Assembly: GCF_025950525.1 (NCBI RefSeq)
Contig: NZ_JAPDGS010000001.1
Coordinates: forward strand, 372,001 to 436,000
Reading direction: 5' to 3'
From: Stagnihabitans lacustris
Lineage (GTDB): Bacteria; Pseudomonadota; Alphaproteobacteria; Rhodobacterales; Rhodobacteraceae
DNA: 64,000 nucleotides
Positions 44,557-49,510 of the stretch are shown here, piece by piece. The stretch's first letter is position 1, and each line of letters begins with the position of its first letter. The position numbers and the translations under genes were made by a program. The notes beneath the pieces were generated by a model that was given only the letters and a program-made list of their open reading frames with translations, ran no database searches and had not been told where the DNA came from.

Positions 44557-45528
44557 TTACTTCACCGGGGTGCGATAGGTCACGCGGCGCACCGAGCCGG
44601 TTTTCGACCGCATCAGCAGGGTCTCCAGCGTCAGGAAGCCCGGTTCGCGCTTGATGCCGGCCAAAAGCGAGCCCGAGGTGACGCCGGTCGCCGCAAAGAT
44701 CACATCCGATTGCACCAGGTCATCGCGGGTATAGACGCGGTCGAAATTGGTGATCCCGGCCTTGCGGGCGCGGGCTTTTTCGTCCTCGTTGCGGAAGACC
44801 AGCTTGCCGTAGAACTGGCCGCCCATGCATTTCAGCGCCGCCGCCGCCAGCACGCCTTCGGGCGCCCCGCCCGAGCCCATGTAGATGTCGATCCCGGTCA
44901 CATCGGGCTCGGCGCAATGCATCGCGCCCGCCACGTCGCCATCGGTGATCAGCCGGATCGCGGCCCCGGTCGAGCGGAGTTCCGCGATCAGGTCCTCATG
45001 CCGGGGGCGGTCCAGCACGCAGCAGGTGATGTCATGGGTCGAGACCCCCTTGGCCGCCGCCAGCGCCGAGATACGCTCTGACGGGGTCATCGCAAAGGTC
45101 ACGGTGCCGGGTTTGAAGCCCGGGCCGATGGCCAGCTTGTCCATATAGACGTCGGGCGCATGCAGAAGCGTCCCGCGCGGCGCCATGGCGATCACGGTCA
45201 GCGCATTGGGCATGTCTTTCGCCGTCAGGGTCGTGCCCTCCAGCGGGTCCAGCGCGATATCGACCGCCGGGCCTTTGCCGGTGCCGACCTCTTCGCCGAT
45301 ATACAGCATCGGGGCCTCGTCACGCTCGCCCTCGCCGATGACGACGGTGCCCGCGATGTCCAGAAGGTTCAGCTGTTCGCGCATCGCGTTGACGGCGGCC
45401 TGGTCGGCGGCCTTTTCATCGCCGCGCCCGATCTGAGAGGCGGAAGCCACGGCCGCGGCCTCGGACACGCGGGCAAGGCCCAGCGACAAGAGGCGGTCTT
45501 CGAATTCGGCTTTGGTGTTTTCGGCCAT
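44557..45528 (-). CDS. glpX: Class II fructose-1,6-bisphosphatase GlpX
   Basis: This 323-residue gluconeogenic enzyme hydrolyses fructose-1,6-bisphosphate (and possibly sedoheptulose-1,7-bisphosphate). Metal and substrate motifs are GEGERDEAPMLYIGE, DPLEGTT and GSGGAPEGVLAAAALKCMGG. The length is normal. GGAG lies upstream of the ATG. It is followed by recJ. A conserved hom-glpX-recJ order in related bacteria is interrupted here by four genes. Confidence 0.96.
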   Translation of the reverse strand: MAENTKAEFEDRLLSLGLARVSEAAAVASASQIGRGDEKAADQAAVNAMREQLNLLDIAGTVVIGEGERDEAPMLYIGEEVGTGKGPAVDIALDPLEGTTLTAKDMPNALTVIAMAPRGTLLHAPDVYMDKLAIGPGFKPGTVTFAMTPSERISALAAAKGVSTHDITCCVLDRPRHEDLIAELRSTGAAIRLITDGDVAGAMHCAEPDVTGIDIYMGSGGAPEGVLAAAALKCMGGQFYGKLVFRNEDEKARARKAGITNFDRVYTRDDLVQSDVIFAATGVTSGSLLAGIKREPGFLTLETLLMRSKTGSVRRVTYRTPVK

Positions 45529-45594: not shown

Positions 45595-45813
45595 CTAACG
45601 GAAGTCGTCGGGGGTGGGGGGCGGGGCCGAGTTGCGGGGTTTTCGCCACAGGGCGATGCCTGCCCAGACCAAGAGCCCGGCCGGGACGAAGCCGATCAAC
45701 AGGAATATCCAGGCGCTGTCCGCAGCGACGATCTGCGCAAAGAAGATCGAGCAGCCGCCGCATAGAAAGGCCACCAGGAAGAGGATCAGGGCGATCAGGC
45801 GCAGGAGGATCAT
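45595..45813 (-). CDS. Small membrane protein with GGCS motif (second copy)
   Basis: This is a 72-residue protein with two membrane helices. Near the end of the first helix it has FLCGGCSIFF, with Cys21. It is a diverged paralogue of the 84-residue protein encoded immediately upstream, which shares the L-x-GGCS-x-FF pattern. It overlaps that gene by ATGA. The Cys resembles an incomplete lipobox, and an Lgt-like gene begins the same operon, so lipid attachment or metal binding at this Cys is possible. Function is unknown. Confidence 0.82.
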   Translation of the reverse strand: MILLRLIALILFLVAFLCGGCSIFFAQIVAADSAWIFLLIGFVPAGLLVWAGIALWRKPRNSAPPPTPDDFR

Positions 45814-46064
45814 TCGGGCCTCTCCGCGTCGAAGGCCTTGGCGGGTGCGGGGCGGGTCAGGCGGCGCAGGATCCAGACGCCGAGGCCGATGCCTGCCGCC
45901 GCCACGATCAGGCCGATGGCCCAGACCATCTGGACGGCCTCGATATAGTCTCCGCCCTTCAGGATGTCGGGGGTGAAGAAGGCCGAGCAGCCGCCGGCAA
46001 GGAGCCCCACCAGCAGGAGGATGCAGCCCAGAGCGAAGAGGATGAAGCGCAGGATGGGGTTCAT
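45810..46064 (-). CDS. Small membrane protein with GGCS motif (first copy)
   Basis: This is an 84-residue protein with two membrane helices and LLAGGCSAFFTPD near the end of the first, with Cys26, then a second helix (MVWAIGLIVAAAGIGLGVWI) and a basic/acidic tail. It overlaps the radical SAM gene and the second-copy gene by four bases each, so the three are coupled. The shared GGCS motif with its neighbour marks the likely functional residue. Confidence 0.82.
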   Translation of the reverse strand: MNPILRFILFALGCILLLVGLLAGGCSAFFTPDILKGGDYIEAVQMVWAIGLIVAAAGIGLGVWILRRLTRPAPAKAFDAERPE

Positions 46065-47470
46065 GCCATGGCCCTGCGCGCGACGAGGGAGGCCGCGCGG
46101 CGGGTGCGGGCGTCCTCGTCGCGGTAAAACAGGTTATAGGTGTCGAAGGGGATGATGCCGTCAGCCGTCAGGAAGTGGACGCAAGAGCGTTTGACGCGCG
46201 AGAGGCAGAAGTTGTGCGGGTCAAGGAATTCGGAAATCGCGACGCGGAAGAGGTCCTTGTAGCCGACCTCTGACGGGGCCTCGATGCCGGGAAAGCAGCA
46301 GAAGAGGGTTTCCAGCCGTTCGGGGACGACCTGATCGACATTGGTCAGGGAAAAGAAGTCGAAGATCCGCGCACGCAGGCCGGGGTGGCGTTCGAAAGTG
46401 ACGGAGTTCGGCAGTTCCGACAGCAGCAGGTCCTTGGGCAGCAGGCCGGTGATCGGGGCTATGCGGTCGCCGGACCGCAGGCCATAGCCCACGCAGATAG
46501 AGGAAGGGTTGCAGGGCAGGGGGATCATGTCGGCGGCGCCAAAGGCCCCATGGGCGATGATGCTGGCGCGGATGTCGGACAGGGTGATGCGGTCGCGGGC
46601 GGGGTCAAAGCCCTCGTTCCGGCCGGCGTCCTGGATCGGCTGGAAGGTGACGCCGCGCACGCAAGACCAGGTCAGCGCGTGGTCGATGATGGCGCCGGTC
46701 TCGTCGTCATTGACGCCCTGTTTCACGGTGACGACCAGGGTGGTCGATATCCCCGCGGCCTCCAGCGCCACTAGGGCCTGTTGCCGGATTCGGGTCAGGT
46801 CGGCGCCGCGCAGGGTTTTCAGCGCCTCGGGGCGCAGGCTGTCGAATTGCAGATAAACCTCGAACCCCGGCTTCAGGCTGGCAAGTTCGGCCACGAAGGC
46901 CGGGTCCTTGGCGATGCGCAAGCCATTGGTGTTCAACATGACATGGCGGATGGGGCGCGATTTCGCCGCCCGCAGGATATCCATGATCTGCGGATGCAAG
47001 GTCGGCTCTCCGCCCGAGATCTGCAGCAGGTCCGGTTCGCCCTCGGCGGCCACCAGCATGTCCAACAACGCCTCACATTCGGCCAGGGTCTTTTGCCCGG
47101 TCTGCGCCGGGGAGGAACCCGCAAAACAGACCGGGCAAGTCAGGTTGCAGGTCTCGTTCACCTCCAGGATGGCCAGGCAGCTGTGCTGTTCGTGGTCAGG
47201 ACAAAGCCCGCAATCATAGGGGCAGCCCTCTTCGATGCGGGTCGCAAAGGCCTGCGGGCGGTCCGAGGGTTTCACCCAGGTCTCTTGCGCGCGCCAATAG
47301 GCCGGGTCGCCCGAAACGCGGACCTTTTGCACCCCATGGGTCCGGCAGCGTTTCAGGTAAAACACCGCGCCGTCCTCTTCGATGATCTTGGCGGGCACCG
47401 GGGCCAAGCAATCGGCACAGAGCGAGACGGTCTGGCCGAGGAACAGGTAATTGGCAATCTTGCGGGTCAT
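46061..47470 (-). CDS. Radical SAM enzyme of the MJ0619/Tes-like type
   Basis: This 469-residue enzyme has the radical SAM cluster motif C-x3-C-x2-C in CNLTCPVCF (Cys108, 112, 115) and the GGEP motif (ISGGEPTLHP). An N-terminal Cys set (C18-x2-C21, C42, H45) looks like a zinc ribbon, and EGCPYDCGLCPDHEQHSC (83-98) adds four more cysteines. A late Cys-rich tail (LETLFCCFPG, FCLSRVKRSC) could hold further clusters. This layout resembles the MJ0619/tetraether-synthase-like group, whose studied members modify methanopterin or join lipid tails. It is coupled to an Lgt-like gene (ATGA) and to two small membrane proteins. I infer modification of a membrane lipid or lipidated Cys; the reaction is unproven. 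Confidence 0.9.
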   Translation of the reverse strand: MTRKIANYLFLGQTVSLCADCLAPVPAKIIEEDGAVFYLKRCRTHGVQKVRVSGDPAYWRAQETWVKPSDRPQAFATRIEEGCPYDCGLCPDHEQHSCLAILEVNETCNLTCPVCFAGSSPAQTGQKTLAECEALLDMLVAAEGEPDLLQISGGEPTLHPQIMDILRAAKSRPIRHVMLNTNGLRIAKDPAFVAELASLKPGFEVYLQFDSLRPEALKTLRGADLTRIRQQALVALEAAGISTTLVVTVKQGVNDDETGAIIDHALTWSCVRGVTFQPIQDAGRNEGFDPARDRITLSDIRASIIAHGAFGAADMIPLPCNPSSICVGYGLRSGDRIAPITGLLPKDLLLSELPNSVTFERHPGLRARIFDFFSLTNVDQVVPERLETLFCCFPGIEAPSEVGYKDLFRVAISEFLDPHNFCLSRVKRSCVHFLTADGIIPFDTYNLFYRDEDARTRRAASLVARRAMA

Positions 47471-48213
47471 TTGCGCACCATATGGACAGCATAGGCCACA
47501 AGCCCCGCGCAGGTCATGTGGAAAAGATTCAGCGGGCCCAGAAGGGCGGCATAGGGTTTCAAGAACTCCAGCCCAAAGCGCTGGGCGGCGTAAAACCCCA
47601 CCATCAGGTGAAAGCCATGGGCGGCAAAGAGCGGCCGATGTCGCAGGGCAAAGGCCAGGGCCAGAAAGGCGGTCATGGCCAGGCTTTCATAGGCGGCGAC
47701 GGGGTGGCGGGGGATATGGTCGCCGAAATCCACGCCCCAGGGCAGGGCGGTGGGGATGCCGTAGGTGTTGTCCTCCAGCCCCGAAAGCGCACAGCCGATG
47801 CGGCCGACGATGACCAGGGCGCAGAAGGTCGGCACCAGGGGGCCCCCGGTTGACCCCTTGATCCCGCTGCGGGACTTATAGAGTTCGACCGCGATGATCC
47901 CCCCGGTCAGCGCCCCCAGGATGGACCGGCCAAGGGCGGGCACGCCCGACAGCCAAAGGTTTGCCGTGCCAAGGAGATATGAGCCCAACAGGATGCCCAG
48001 GGACAGGGCGGTCAAATAGCCCTCGCGCGCCACCGGGCCGAGGCTGCCGATCGGCGCTTTTGTCGCCGCGGCGTCGCCCGGGTTTGCGCCCTGACCCGGG
48101 GTATACCCCGGGCTACGCAAGCGCCACCAGAGCCCTGTCATCCCCGCCGCCACGACGACGGCCAACAGGTCAAACGCCAGGTGAACCGGGAGGCCCCACA
48201 GCACGGGGCCCAT
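47467..48213 (-). CDS. Prolipoprotein diacylglyceryl transferase-like (Lgt-like) membrane protein
   Basis: This 248-residue protein has about seven membrane helices and Lgt-type landmarks: GGIIAVELYKSR, the signature-like VGRIGCALSGLEDNTYG and DHIPRHPVAAYESLAM. Lgt transfers diacylglyceryl from phosphatidylglycerol to the lipobox Cys. A housekeeping lgt would be expected elsewhere in the genome; this one is coupled to a radical SAM gene, so a specialised lipid-transfer role is inferred. It starts four bases after the hom stop and overlaps the radical SAM gene by ATGA. Confidence 0.85.
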   Translation of the reverse strand: MGPVLWGLPVHLAFDLLAVVVAAGMTGLWWRLRSPGYTPGQGANPGDAAATKAPIGSLGPVAREGYLTALSLGILLGSYLLGTANLWLSGVPALGRSILGALTGGIIAVELYKSRSGIKGSTGGPLVPTFCALVIVGRIGCALSGLEDNTYGIPTALPWGVDFGDHIPRHPVAAYESLAMTAFLALAFALRHRPLFAAHGFHLMVGFYAAQRFGLEFLKPYAALLGPLNLFHMTCAGLVAYAVHMVRK

Positions 48214-48217
48214 CCTG

Positions 48218-49510
48218 TCAGACCTCTTCTATGCGCAGGGCCACCGGTTCGCCCACCAGCACGCCCGTCGTCGCAAACCGCGCCACCGCATCCGCGATAT
48301 CGGCCGGAGAGGCCTTGTGCGTCACGATCAGCACCGGGGCATGGACCCCCTCATGGCCGTTCTGGCGCATCTGGTCGATGGACACGCCCGCCTCACCCAG
48401 GCAGGTCGCGATCTTGGCCAGGGCGCCGGGCTTGTCCAACAGCGTCATGCGCAGATACCAGGCCGAGGGCGCCTGGGCCTTGGCCGGCACCGCCACGGTC
48501 AGGGTGCTGGCCGGCTGACCAAAGGTCGACACCCGCGTGCCCCGTGCCAGGTCGATCACATCGCCCATCACCGCCGAAGCCGTCGGACCCTCACCGGCGC
48601 CCGGGCCGCGCATGACCACCTGGCCCACCGCGTCGCCCTCCAGCACCACCATGTTCGTGCCGCCTTGCAATTGGCCCAAGGGGCTGTCGGCGGGCACCAG
48701 GCAGGGCGTCATGCGCTGCTCCAGCCCCCGGCCCGTCATCTGCGTCACGCCAAGCAGTTTGATCCGATACCCAAGGTCGCGCGCCATGTGGATGTCGTCC
48801 AGAAGGATGTTCTGGATGCCCTGCAACTCGACCGCGTCAAAGGCCACCTGGGTCCCGAAGGCGATGGACGACAACAGCGACAGCTTGTGCCCGGCGTCGA
48901 TCCCGCCCACGTCCAGGTTCGGATCAGCCTCCAGATACCCAAGCTTGGCACATTCGTCGAAAAGGACGTTATAGCCCTGTCCGGTCGCCTCCATCCGCGT
49001 CAGGATATAGTTGCAGGTGCCGTTCATCACGCCCATGACGCGCTTCATCTGGTTGCCCGCCAGCCCCTCGGTCAGGGCCTTGATCACCGGGATGCCGCCC
49101 GCCACCGCCGCCTCGAAGCGGATGACGCGGCCGCGGGCCTCGGCGGCCAAGGCAAGGGCCTGACCGTGATGGGCGAGAAGCGCCTTGTTGGCCGTGACCA
49201 CATCCTTGCCCGCGGCAATCGCGGCCTCGGTCGCGTGGCGCGCGGGGCCTTCGTGGCCGCCCATGACCTCGACAAAGACGTCGATGTCGGGGCGCTGCGC
49301 CAAGGCCACCGGGTCCGCCTCGAAAGCATAGGCCGAAAGGTCGACGCCCCGGTCCTTTTGCGACCGCGCCGAGACCGCGACGATCTGCACCGCACGCCCG
49401 GCGCGTTTGGCGATCAGGTCGCCATGGGTCTGCAGGATGCGCACGACGCCGCGCCCGACGGTGCCAAGGCCCGCGATCCCAAGACGAAGGGGGGGAAGGG
49501 ATTGGGTCAT
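48218..49510 (-). CDS. hom: Homoserine dehydrogenase
   Basis: This 430-residue enzyme reduces aspartate semialdehyde to homoserine for Thr and Met synthesis. It has an NAD(P)-binding start (LRLGIAGLGTVGRGVVRIL), a catalytic core with GVMNGTCNYILTRM and GYLEADPNLDVGGIDAGHK, and a C-terminal ACT domain (LRMTLLDKPGALAKIATCLG) for feedback control. The length is normal. It reads into the Lgt-like gene with a four-base gap. Confidence 0.96.
   Translation of the reverse strand: MTQSLPPLRLGIAGLGTVGRGVVRILQTHGDLIAKRAGRAVQIVAVSARSQKDRGVDLSAYAFEADPVALAQRPDIDVFVEVMGGHEGPARHATEAAIAAGKDVVTANKALLAHHGQALALAAEARGRVIRFEAAVAGGIPVIKALTEGLAGNQMKRVMGVMNGTCNYILTRMEATGQGYNVLFDECAKLGYLEADPNLDVGGIDAGHKLSLLSSIAFGTQVAFDAVELQGIQNILLDDIHMARDLGYRIKLLGVTQMTGRGLEQRMTPCLVPADSPLGQLQGGTNMVVLEGDAVGQVVMRGPGAGEGPTASAVMGDVIDLARGTRVSTFGQPASTLTVAVPAKAQAPSAWYLRMTLLDKPGALAKIATCLGEAGVSIDQMRQNGHEGVHAPVLIVTHKASPADIADAVARFATTGVLVGEPVALRIEEV

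Follow-up and report, generated by a model that had tools for sequence, protein, structure and literature searches.

A conserved cassette of an Lgt-like protein, a Tes-like radical SAM enzyme and small G-x-C membrane proteins suggests an apparently undescribed way of modifying the cell envelope

The window, a 64,000-nucleotide stretch of the genome of Stagnihabitans lacustris (contig NZ_JAPDGS010000001.1, positions 372,001 to 436,000), harbors a cassette of four minus-strand genes placed between hom and glpX. All three junctions within the cassette are 4-base ATGA overlaps, and the ORFs and overlaps were found as described in an earlier note on this DNA. The features, in the direction of transcription, are as follows.

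48218..49510, minus strand: hom (homoserine dehydrogenase), which flanks the insertion upstream; its start codon was assigned by eye
47467..48213, minus strand: Lgt-like integral membrane protein, 248 aa, assigned on the basis of PF01790 (2.2e-14)
46061..47470, minus strand: radical SAM protein, 469 aa, with the domain plan of Tes/GDGT-MAS
45810..46064, minus strand: small membrane protein 1, 84 aa, two helices, with LAGGC26S where helix 1 ends on the outer side
45595..45813, minus strand: small membrane protein 2, 72 aa, two helices, with LCGGC21S where helix 1 ends on the outer side
44557..45528, minus strand: glpX (fructose-1,6-bisphosphatase class II), which flanks the insertion downstream

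Upstream, 4 bases separate the hom stop codon from the start of the Lgt-like gene; downstream, the cassette is followed by glpX after 66 bases. Among 14 glpX loci from the same genus, hom directly adjoins glpX in eight, the cassette adjoins it in two (the present genome and G858), one shows a 1.25-kb gap to hom, and three show no hom. The two flanking genes are hence normally near neighbors, as the earlier note had stated, and the view of the cassette as an inserted module is borne out by the hom-glpX site, which is empty in eight of the 11 same-genus loci open to judgement. L007 and G858, both at 97.5% to the present glpX, possibly represent the same species.

The genes of the cassette were found to co-occur far beyond this locus. 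Of the 80 best relatives, 75 have the Lgt-like and radical SAM genes side by side, and contig ends truncate the remaining five loci. Small membrane proteins with a cysteine at the helix end are linked to these genes in 79 of 81 loci, counting the own one; no small protein was found in L024, and L066 has an unlinked one only. One Lgt-like match that lacks a radical SAM gene beside it (G522/L105) is apparently fragmentary. The earlier note had held that its proposal would be refuted if, besides a sole lgt, the small proteins failed to co-occur with the radical SAM gene elsewhere; in fact, strong radical SAM matches and G-x-C profile matches fell in the same four of 385 genomes of the class, where absences are not exhaustive because only the best few candidates per genome were scored (at most four with the radical SAM alignment A1, 14 with the small-protein alignment A3, and seven with the Lgt-like alignment A2). 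The small-protein search of the own genome scored all 70 candidates. The cassette was present in four of 198 genomes of the family sampled (own included). The system is rare in that sample, yet taxonomically much wider than first supposed: the three parts occur together, in differing orders, in Pseudomonadota, Bacteroidota and Actinomycetota records, and named cultured strains, e.g., Caulobacter sp. Root343 (L047), carry them. The order is radical SAM, small, Lgt-like in L106/L107; Lgt-like, small, radical SAM on two Mycobacterium plasmids; and small, Lgt-like, radical SAM in Nonomuraea. In L117, a gene for a Sel1-repeat protein, one helix of which ends in GGTGC, lies between both enzymes. Distances among the Lgt-like proteins followed those among the radical SAM proteins (Mantel r 0.872, n 74; best of 999 shuffles 0.106). 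Taken together, these data show that the Lgt-like, radical SAM and small proteins belong together across phyla as a conserved system. Mean pairwise identity amounts to 66% for the radical SAM, 50% for the Lgt-like and 25% for the small proteins, a gradation such as we would expect of enzymes and their substrates.

The cysteine-rich radical SAM protein matched Pfam Radical_SAM (1.6e-18) and Zn_ribbon_HMPTM (3.1e-15). It comprises a rubredoxin-like site (C18-x2-C21-x20-C42-x2-H45), an N-terminal cluster (C83-x3-C87-x2-C90 plus H93), the radical SAM cluster (C108-x3-C112-x2-C115) and a C-terminal part with the invariant C320, C391, C392 and C430. The ligands of the first three were invariant in all 31 sequences of alignment A1 (compare Tes in the available text of PMC9433317). 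A sequence search of the PDB retrieved GDGT-MAS/Tes at 4.3e-58 and a sole other match at 2.6e-4, and the predicted structure compared to GDGT-MAS with a TM of 0.78, followed by the RiPP maturase SkfB at 0.39. The Tes/MJ0619-like layout ascribed to the protein from its sequence was hence confirmed, and according to the model its fold is that of an enzyme which couples lipid tails. Membership in Tes was rejected, as the NCBIfam Tes equivalog scored 244.6 bits (1.7e-72) against a cut-off of 450 and Met439 and Tyr459 are absent, these positions aligning to Ser413 and the invariant Phe433. Both residues have been reported to be completely conserved in archaeal Tes homologues, and an M439A variant of Tes was still active. 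One of the four cysteines in the C-terminal part of Tes is kept. The closest NCBIfam model was TrsS (1.6e-85; 287.3 bits, cut-off 490); membership was again rejected owing to the score below cut-off and to the lack of a DVU_1556-type methyltransferase gene beside the radical SAM gene, none being found in the own locus (L003) or the Lgt-coupled loci searched. No RiPP maturase or SPASM model of Pfam or NCBIfam came over its cut-off.

The Lgt-like protein matched Pfam LGT (PF01790) with 53.8 bits, over the cut-off of 24.9, and an alignment of 42 family sequences (A2, residues numbered after E. coli Lgt) matched the canonical Lgt of the same genome in hhalign (98.3%, 128 columns). The canonical lgt is a separate gene on another contig (match 8.3e-70), which rules out that the cassette gene is the sole lgt of the genome, a circumstance that the earlier note had held would speak against its proposal. 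Equivalents of R143, G154, E202, Y235, R239 and E243 are kept in 42/42 sequences; R143 and R239 of Lgt serve in phosphatidylglycerol (PG) contact and catalysis. On this alignment, the family retains the majority of the PG-contacting residues of Lgt. The position of H103, which is essential in E. coli Lgt (PMC4728403 and PMC13251419, in the parts available) and is the proposed base activating the protein cysteine, holds V, L, A, E or I in all 42; Tyr, Trp or Phe replaces this residue in some Lgts. The position of N146, a likewise essential residue of the Lgt signature motif, is Cys throughout (Cys141 in the own protein), that of R246 is Lys in every sequence, and that of E151 is unconserved. 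At the Y26 position, automatic alignment gave Asp in 40 of 42, while by eye a conserved His four residues earlier fits. The assignment as an Lgt-like membrane protein therefore stood as regards the family match and had to be qualified as regards these residues, His103 being absent and Asn146 being Cys; the group transferred by the enzyme, or its acceptor, might thus be a different one. The predicted structure had a pLDDT of 90.3. Lgt was not among the 50 matches listed for this model by Foldseek or VIA, a result that does not speak for another fold.

Neither of the two small proteins matched a Pfam family over cut-off, and P0003 matched none at the E 0.001 limit. Phage_holin_3_6, with E up to 0.001 in five of 67 members, was rejected as weak. 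From 142 ORFs at the cassette loci, 118 small proteins were kept, and 24 (TerC, rhomboid and Lgt fragments and a few others) were dropped by motifs chosen by eye. G-x-C was found at the helix end in 105 of the 118, one of which (L020:9982-10164) is probably an out-of-frame ORF; 11 more carry a Cys at that place, and two (the second copy of L007 and the first ORF of L037) lack the motif Cys. Alignment A3 was made from the G-x-C members alone, so its invariant Gly and Cys are invariant by construction, and the fair count for the Cys is 116 of 118. The motif seen in both small proteins is thus real, its core recurring in highly divergent relatives. Each locus has one to four copies; L030 contributes a divergent small ORF of just 47 aa.

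The canonical lipobox, L-[ASTVI]-[GAS]-C, lies at the end of an N-terminal helix. The motif of the small proteins, mostly L-[SAC]-G-x-C or, more narrowly, L-[SAC]-G-[GL]-C, agrees with it in position and topology and is one residue longer, with Leu directly before the Cys in 32 of 105; by its pattern it would not count as a normal lipobox. Exactly two helices were predicted in 82 of the 118 proteins. All 82 have more Lys/Arg at both ends than in the loop (totals of 138 and 316 at the ends and 37 in the loop), and since the ends are richer in these residues, the Cys is predicted to face the periplasm. The nearly invariant cysteine hence, by charge distribution, lies on the periplasmic side.

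Tentatively, and at somewhat less than an even chance, the cassette is read as a three-part envelope-modification system in which the Lgt-like protein lipidates the G-x-C cysteine and the radical SAM enzyme modifies lipid tails. The small hairpin proteins, with both ends in the cytoplasm and a single conserved Cys placed like that of a lipobox, where a helix ends on the periplasmic side, would be the substrates. The Lgt-like enzyme would transfer diacylglyceryl from PG to this Cys. The Tes-like enzyme, acting after lipidation or beforehand on the donor lipid, would activate unreactive C-H positions in the acyl tails and alter these, possibly joining them. We infer that the Cys is the acceptor, PG the donor and a lipid, not a peptide, the target of the radical SAM enzyme. 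This enzyme should be cytoplasmic and the Cys periplasmic, so that the two could meet only through the core of the bilayer. A more far-reaching form, which we consider doubtful, is that the Cys receives diacylglyceryl in the outer leaflet from the Lgt-like enzyme and that the radical SAM enzyme, extending into the membrane from its cytoplasmic side, joins one of these tails to a tail of an inner-leaflet lipid or of a second G-x-C protein, the product being a protein held by a membrane-spanning lipid. We know of no protein anchored in this way.

A rather unlikely alternative is that a free membrane lipid is made or remodeled, the radical SAM enzyme altering or joining tails, the Lgt-like protein handling diacylglyceryl without a protein acceptor and the G-x-C proteins being membrane scaffolds and not substrates. 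GDGT-MAS, the best structural relative of the radical SAM enzyme, acts on free lipids, and the Lgt-like family is without the His proposed as the base for a protein Cys. In L106/L107, a gene for an ICMT/PEMT-type membrane methyltransferase follows the Lgt-like gene, and PEMT enzymes act on phospholipids. However, this alternative leaves unexplained why a helix-end Cys on the predicted periplasmic side is kept in nearly all of these otherwise very divergent proteins, why a locus may hold up to four of them, and why a Sel1-type partner occurs in L117.

It is unlikely that the radical SAM enzyme modifies the G-x-C peptide itself in a RiPP-like manner (e.g., by a thioether or C-C crosslink), with the Lgt-like protein only anchoring the product. 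Small proteins that evolve fast, often occur in several copies and neighbor a radical SAM gene do resemble precursor peptides, and SkfB was the best match after GDGT-MAS; however, the overall fold follows Tes and not the maturases, the maturase and SPASM models stayed below cut-off, and a cytoplasmic enzyme would face the membrane from the side opposite to the Cys. Still less probable is a redox or metal-handling system related to TrsS/DVU_1556 methyltransferase genes, in which the membrane Cys would be a metal or thiol carrier. The radical SAM protein is nearer to TrsS than to Tes in NCBIfam, both below cut-off, and in three of seven plasmid homologues a methyltransferase gene comes right after the radical SAM gene, the one in L119 scoring 136 bits with the DVU_1556-type model (cut-off 155). 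Against this, when 97 loci were searched with the methyltransferase of L119, it proved to neighbor the radical SAM gene in L119, L120 and L123 alone, loci in which no Lgt-like match was found; seven weaker matches (best 4.9e-10) lie on the opposite strand, at least 2 kb away. Also, one Cys per protein makes a poor metal site. A chance grouping, in which an additional lgt and a radical SAM gene merely came to lie beside unrelated small genes, is hardly credible, for although each enzyme belongs to a known superfamily, the co-occurrence of the three parts in differing orders in three phyla contradicts it.

No description of the combination of Lgt-like, Tes-like radical SAM and G-x-C proteins was found in Pfam, NCBIfam or the literature (largely without subscription journals), including the available parts of PMC8941075, PMC9433317, PMC13274423, PMC4728403, PMC13251419, PMC8939145, PMC7641849 and PMC13188914; in the same literature no described system was found that couples an Lgt-type enzyme with radical SAM chemistry. 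The cassette thereby suggests an apparently undescribed way of modifying the cell envelope. If the lipidation reading is true, the puzzling N146C branch of Lgt homologues would gain a partner and a candidate substrate, and caution would be due before bacterial Tes homologues are all read as markers of membrane-spanning lipids. Such lipids are used as climate proxies. Should the membrane-spanning anchor be true, some Tes homologues of Proteobacteria proposed as brGDGT synthases could be protein-modifying enzymes.

Compared with known systems, the cassette resembles Lgt (PF01790; E. coli 5AZC) in its Pfam match and the six kept equivalents, and differs from it in an aliphatic residue or Glu at H103, in N146 to Cys, in R246 to Lys and in the unconserved E151 position. 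The Cys at N146 is shared with distant Lgt homologues such as MSMEG_5408 and L. interrogans Lgt (PMC13251419, available part), and by eye perhaps also Y26H, the conserved His at the start of helix 1, where the automatic alignment gives Asp; the available text of that source mentions no radical SAM or small-protein partner for them. The tetraether lipid synthase Tes/GDGT-MAS (MJ0619, 7TOL/7TOM) shares the four-part architecture, the cluster ligands and the fold (TM 0.78), whereas the cassette enzyme is without Met439 and Tyr459, has another set of C-terminal cysteines and scores 244.6 bits against 450. TrsS, a radical SAM (seleno)protein paired with a DVU_1556-type methyltransferase, a pairing inferred from L119, is the closest NCBIfam model, while the partners in the cassette are the Lgt-like and G-x-C proteins instead of such a methyltransferase. 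Neither cassette enzyme passes the full test of family membership, and every family compared in this way is missed in one or more defining traits. MYXO-CTERM proteins and myxosortase (PMC11980579, as far as available) likewise combine a conserved Cys beside a membrane helix with a dedicated membrane enzyme; the cassette differs in including a radical SAM enzyme and in that its motif sits where a helix with a cytoplasmic start reaches its outer end. The parts of the cassette come from known superfamilies, and its novelty is at the level of the system.

The cassette, flanked by hom and glpX, occupies the minus strand from 48213 down to 45595, its four genes encoding an Lgt-like protein, a radical SAM protein and two small membrane proteins. 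An ATGA overlap joins each gene to the next (Lgt-like to radical SAM, radical SAM to small 1, small 1 to small 2), as stated in the earlier note. Since the Lgt-like start is placed 4 bases past the hom stop, the cassette is probably read together with hom. Pfam analysis matched the Lgt-like protein to PF01790 (2.2e-14) and the radical SAM protein to PF04055 and the HMPTM zinc-ribbon model; the latter protein fell under the cut-off of every NCBIfam model listed. The small proteins gave no Pfam match over the cut-off, nor did small protein 1 in a Pfam search at 0.001. The reservation in that note, that the Lgt-like gene might be the sole lgt of the genome, does not apply, as a second, canonical copy (8.3e-70) is located on a different contig.

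The cassette had been regarded as an inserted module and hom and glpX as near neighbours in related genomes, and both views are borne out by the glpX loci (26 genomes searched, glpX found in 20). Among the 14 same-genus loci read, hom lies within about 320 bases of glpX without a cassette in eight, the cassette adjoins glpX in two (the own locus and genome G858), a 1.25-kb glpX–hom gap is present in one, and hom is absent from the stretch read in three. Outside the own family, hom adjoins glpX in 5/7 loci of the class. The gene order in Stagnihabitans tardus (locus L007) is hom, cassette, glpX, recJ, and the radical SAM gene of L009 immediately precedes glpX; neither hom nor glpX was found within the stretch read in L008, L010, L011 and L012.

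The system is rare, being present in 4/198 genomes of the Rhodobacteraceae, own included. The radical SAM search of the Alphaproteobacteria identified 6/385 genomes at 1e-60, four of them strong, and 9/299 genomes were found in the phylum, three of the nine outside the class. A profile built from the small proteins of cassette members, with the best candidates per genome scored, matched 4/385 class genomes, and these are the same four with a strong radical SAM match, a co-occurrence of the kind that the earlier note had proposed to look for across Rhodobacterales. The Lgt-like profile recovered the same four and one fragment. The chance of two sets of four agreeing is about 1 in 9x10^8 if genomes are independent, a guide value as the genomes are related. 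As the profile derives from cassette members and was applied to the best candidates, the informative point is that it picked up all four genomes and no fifth. With all candidates of the own genome scored, it found the two cassette genes only. It is practically certain that the system is real and coupled. A shortened Lgt-like ORF of this family (485-1048 of L105, G522:C68:1-8000) has neither a radical SAM gene nor small genes around it in the 8 kb examined and may be what is left of a lost cassette.

The collection scan yielded at least 584 confirmed relatives, and the 80 best were examined. The Lgt-like gene adjoins the radical SAM gene, at most about 0.9 kb away, in 75 of these 80, and in the remaining five (L009, L013, L079, L081 and L086) the radical SAM gene lies within about 110 bases of a contig end. 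In four loci (L031, L032, L034 and L036), the Lgt-like gene follows the radical SAM gene instead of preceding it. The two genes overlap in 58 of the 76 loci with both, own included. The junction between the radical SAM gene and the first downstream ORF, counted in 76 loci before small-ORF filtering, showed a 4-base overlap in 55, another overlap in nine and an open junction in 12.

A downstream walk past the radical SAM gene, made for 81 loci (own and the best 80 of at least 584), yielded 142 candidate ORFs from 76 of them; filtering removed 24 (TerC, rhomboid, Lgt fragments and similar), leaving 118 in 75 loci. A G-x-C motif, predominantly L-[SAC]-G-[GL]-C-[STA], stands at the helix end in 105/118, the Cys occurs there in another setting (TLGC, GLGC, PSMC, GVLC) in 11, and it is absent in two (the L007 second copy and the L037 first ORF). 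Among the 105, L020:9982-10164 is probably spurious; without it, the Cys is found in 115/117. No G-x-C was encountered downstream in 14/81 loci. Nine of these have the TLGC form (L037 in its second ORF, L038-L041, L044, L046, L048, L055), L021 has three G-x-C proteins and L030 one short protein (47 aa) divergently upstream, L080 has one between the two enzymes, L066 has one on another contig only, and none was found in L024. A linked small Cys protein is thus present in 79/81 loci. Exactly two helices were predicted in 82/118 proteins, with Lys/Arg totals of 138 and 316 at the ends and 37 in the loop (mean lengths 13, 18 and 17 residues, respectively). As the two ends carry more Lys/Arg than the loop in 82/82, the Cys is placed at the periplasmic face, at a median of 20 residues after the last charged residue or His, and is on the same membrane side as Lgt activity.

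The second small protein of S. tardus, a close relative (L007:4137-4382), has a different first helix and no Cys, its C-terminal third being 61% identical to the window's second small protein (45595-45813). A TerC-family gene, left out of the counts, follows the small proteins in L017, L020, L023, L025, L026, L027 and L035 (by Pfam for L023 and L026, otherwise by eye) and may represent lineage synteny or a further partner. A rhomboid-family gene follows the cassette in the Reyranella-type TLGC loci L037-L041, L044, L046, L048 and L055 (by Pfam for L039, otherwise by eye).

Two distant class members (G397 and G566) have radical SAM matches of about 1e-67. Their small-genome versions, L106 and L107, are ordered radical SAM, small membrane proteins, Lgt-like and ICMT/PEMT-type membrane protein, with GTC in both small proteins of L106 and in one of two in L107. 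The Lgt-like gene is present in all seven new phylum loci (L111-L117) and the small-protein profile matched six; in the seventh, L117, the two enzyme genes flank a gene for a Sel1-repeat protein with GGTGC at the end of its first helix. The additional or alternative partners were as follows.

L106:2935-3912, minus strand, ICMT/PEMT-type membrane methyltransferase after the Lgt-like gene (3e-13 to ICMT)
L107:7754-8755, ICMT/PEMT-type membrane methyltransferase after the Lgt-like gene (6.6e-12 to ICMT)
L117:677-1507, Sel1-repeat protein, genome outside the class
L119, L120 and L123, Mycolicibacterium plasmid and two haloarchaeal plasmids, methyltransferase partner instead of Lgt-like

ICMT enzymes methylate a lipidated C-terminal Cys; hence, in L106 and L107 the ICMT/PEMT-type protein may belong to the system as an extra component; searches of the other loci gave no match to it. 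The Sel1-repeat protein may be a version of the substrate with a soluble domain. Seven plasmid records contained a homologue at 1e-40, four with an Lgt-like neighbour. Persicobacter encodes a protein of 59 aa with GTGICGSLLS at its end. Mycobacterium avium and M. branderi each have two small proteins that end in L/I-[ST]-x-G-x-C-T-G-L-N-P-..., and in Nonomuraea a protein with the ending SAGICTGINPSLYG is encoded before the Lgt-like gene. In all four, the Cys closes the last helix and here too follows a positively charged segment. In the other three, a methyltransferase gene follows the radical SAM gene, and the Lgt-like search gave no match in these loci, so that partner choice seems to divide the radical SAM family. 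The L119 methyltransferase, used as query against 97 loci, adjoins the radical SAM gene in L119, L120 and L123 only; seven weaker matches are in Reyranella-type loci, on the other strand and at least 2 kb away. The haloarchaeal homologues are also adjoined by peroxiredoxin/redoxin and DUF547 genes.

Mean identity was 66% for the radical SAM proteins, 50% for the Lgt-like proteins and 25%, with one fixed residue, for the small proteins; by this pattern the former two resemble modifying enzymes and the small proteins their targets. The adjoining of a lipid-tail radical enzyme to a lipid-transferring enzyme suggests lipid as the common object. On balance, the small-protein Cys is favoured as the acceptor. 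The reading as a whole, in which the Lgt-like enzyme lipidates this Cys and the radical SAM enzyme modifies the lipid tails, is put forward tentatively and with some doubt. No paper was found in the literature search that combines an Lgt-like enzyme, a radical SAM enzyme and small Cys proteins; the single one in which Lgt, radical SAM and diacylglyceryl are all mentioned is unrelated.

Alignment of 42 Lgt-like members with the own canonical Lgt (E. coli numbering) showed equivalents of R143, G154, E202, Y235, R239 and E243 in 42/42. Y26, H103, R143, N146, G154 and R239 are reported to be essential in E. coli Lgt (PMC4728403, PMC13251419). Unlike E. coli Lgt, the family has no His at H103 (V, L, A, E or I in the 42 members) and carries Cys for N146, as well as Lys for R246 (both 42/42); E151 is variable. 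Automatic alignment placed Asp at Y26 in 40/42; a conserved helix 1 His, four residues earlier, fits better by eye, unsupported by that alignment. Judged from these residues, the enzyme probably still binds PG and activates the acceptor differently, the invariant Cys141 being a candidate for this role.

The Tes-like layout assigned earlier to the radical SAM protein is upheld by sequence and predicted structure. The Tes ligands of the rubredoxin site, N-terminal cluster and radical SAM cluster, as given in PMC9433317, are invariant in 31/31 aligned members. An AlphaFold prediction (pLDDT 81, with low confidence at 371-400) gave TM 0.78/0.74 to GDGT-MAS and 0.39 to the next entry. The two mycobacterial versions have no N-terminal cluster motif (by eye). 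The C-terminal part retains one of four Tes cysteines, with C320, C391, C392 and C430 invariant instead. Two residues reported to be fully conserved among archaeal Tes proteins, Met439 and Tyr459, are missing in this family and align to Ser413 and invariant Phe433 (numbering offset 20, confirmed by C9 and Tyr459). The lack of Met439 is compatible with tail chemistry, since the Tes M439A variant is reported to retain activity. With 4e-58 to MJ0619, the family may belong to the 456 bacterial Tes homologues, some from Proteobacteria, for which Zeng et al. (PMC8941075) propose brGDGT synthesis.
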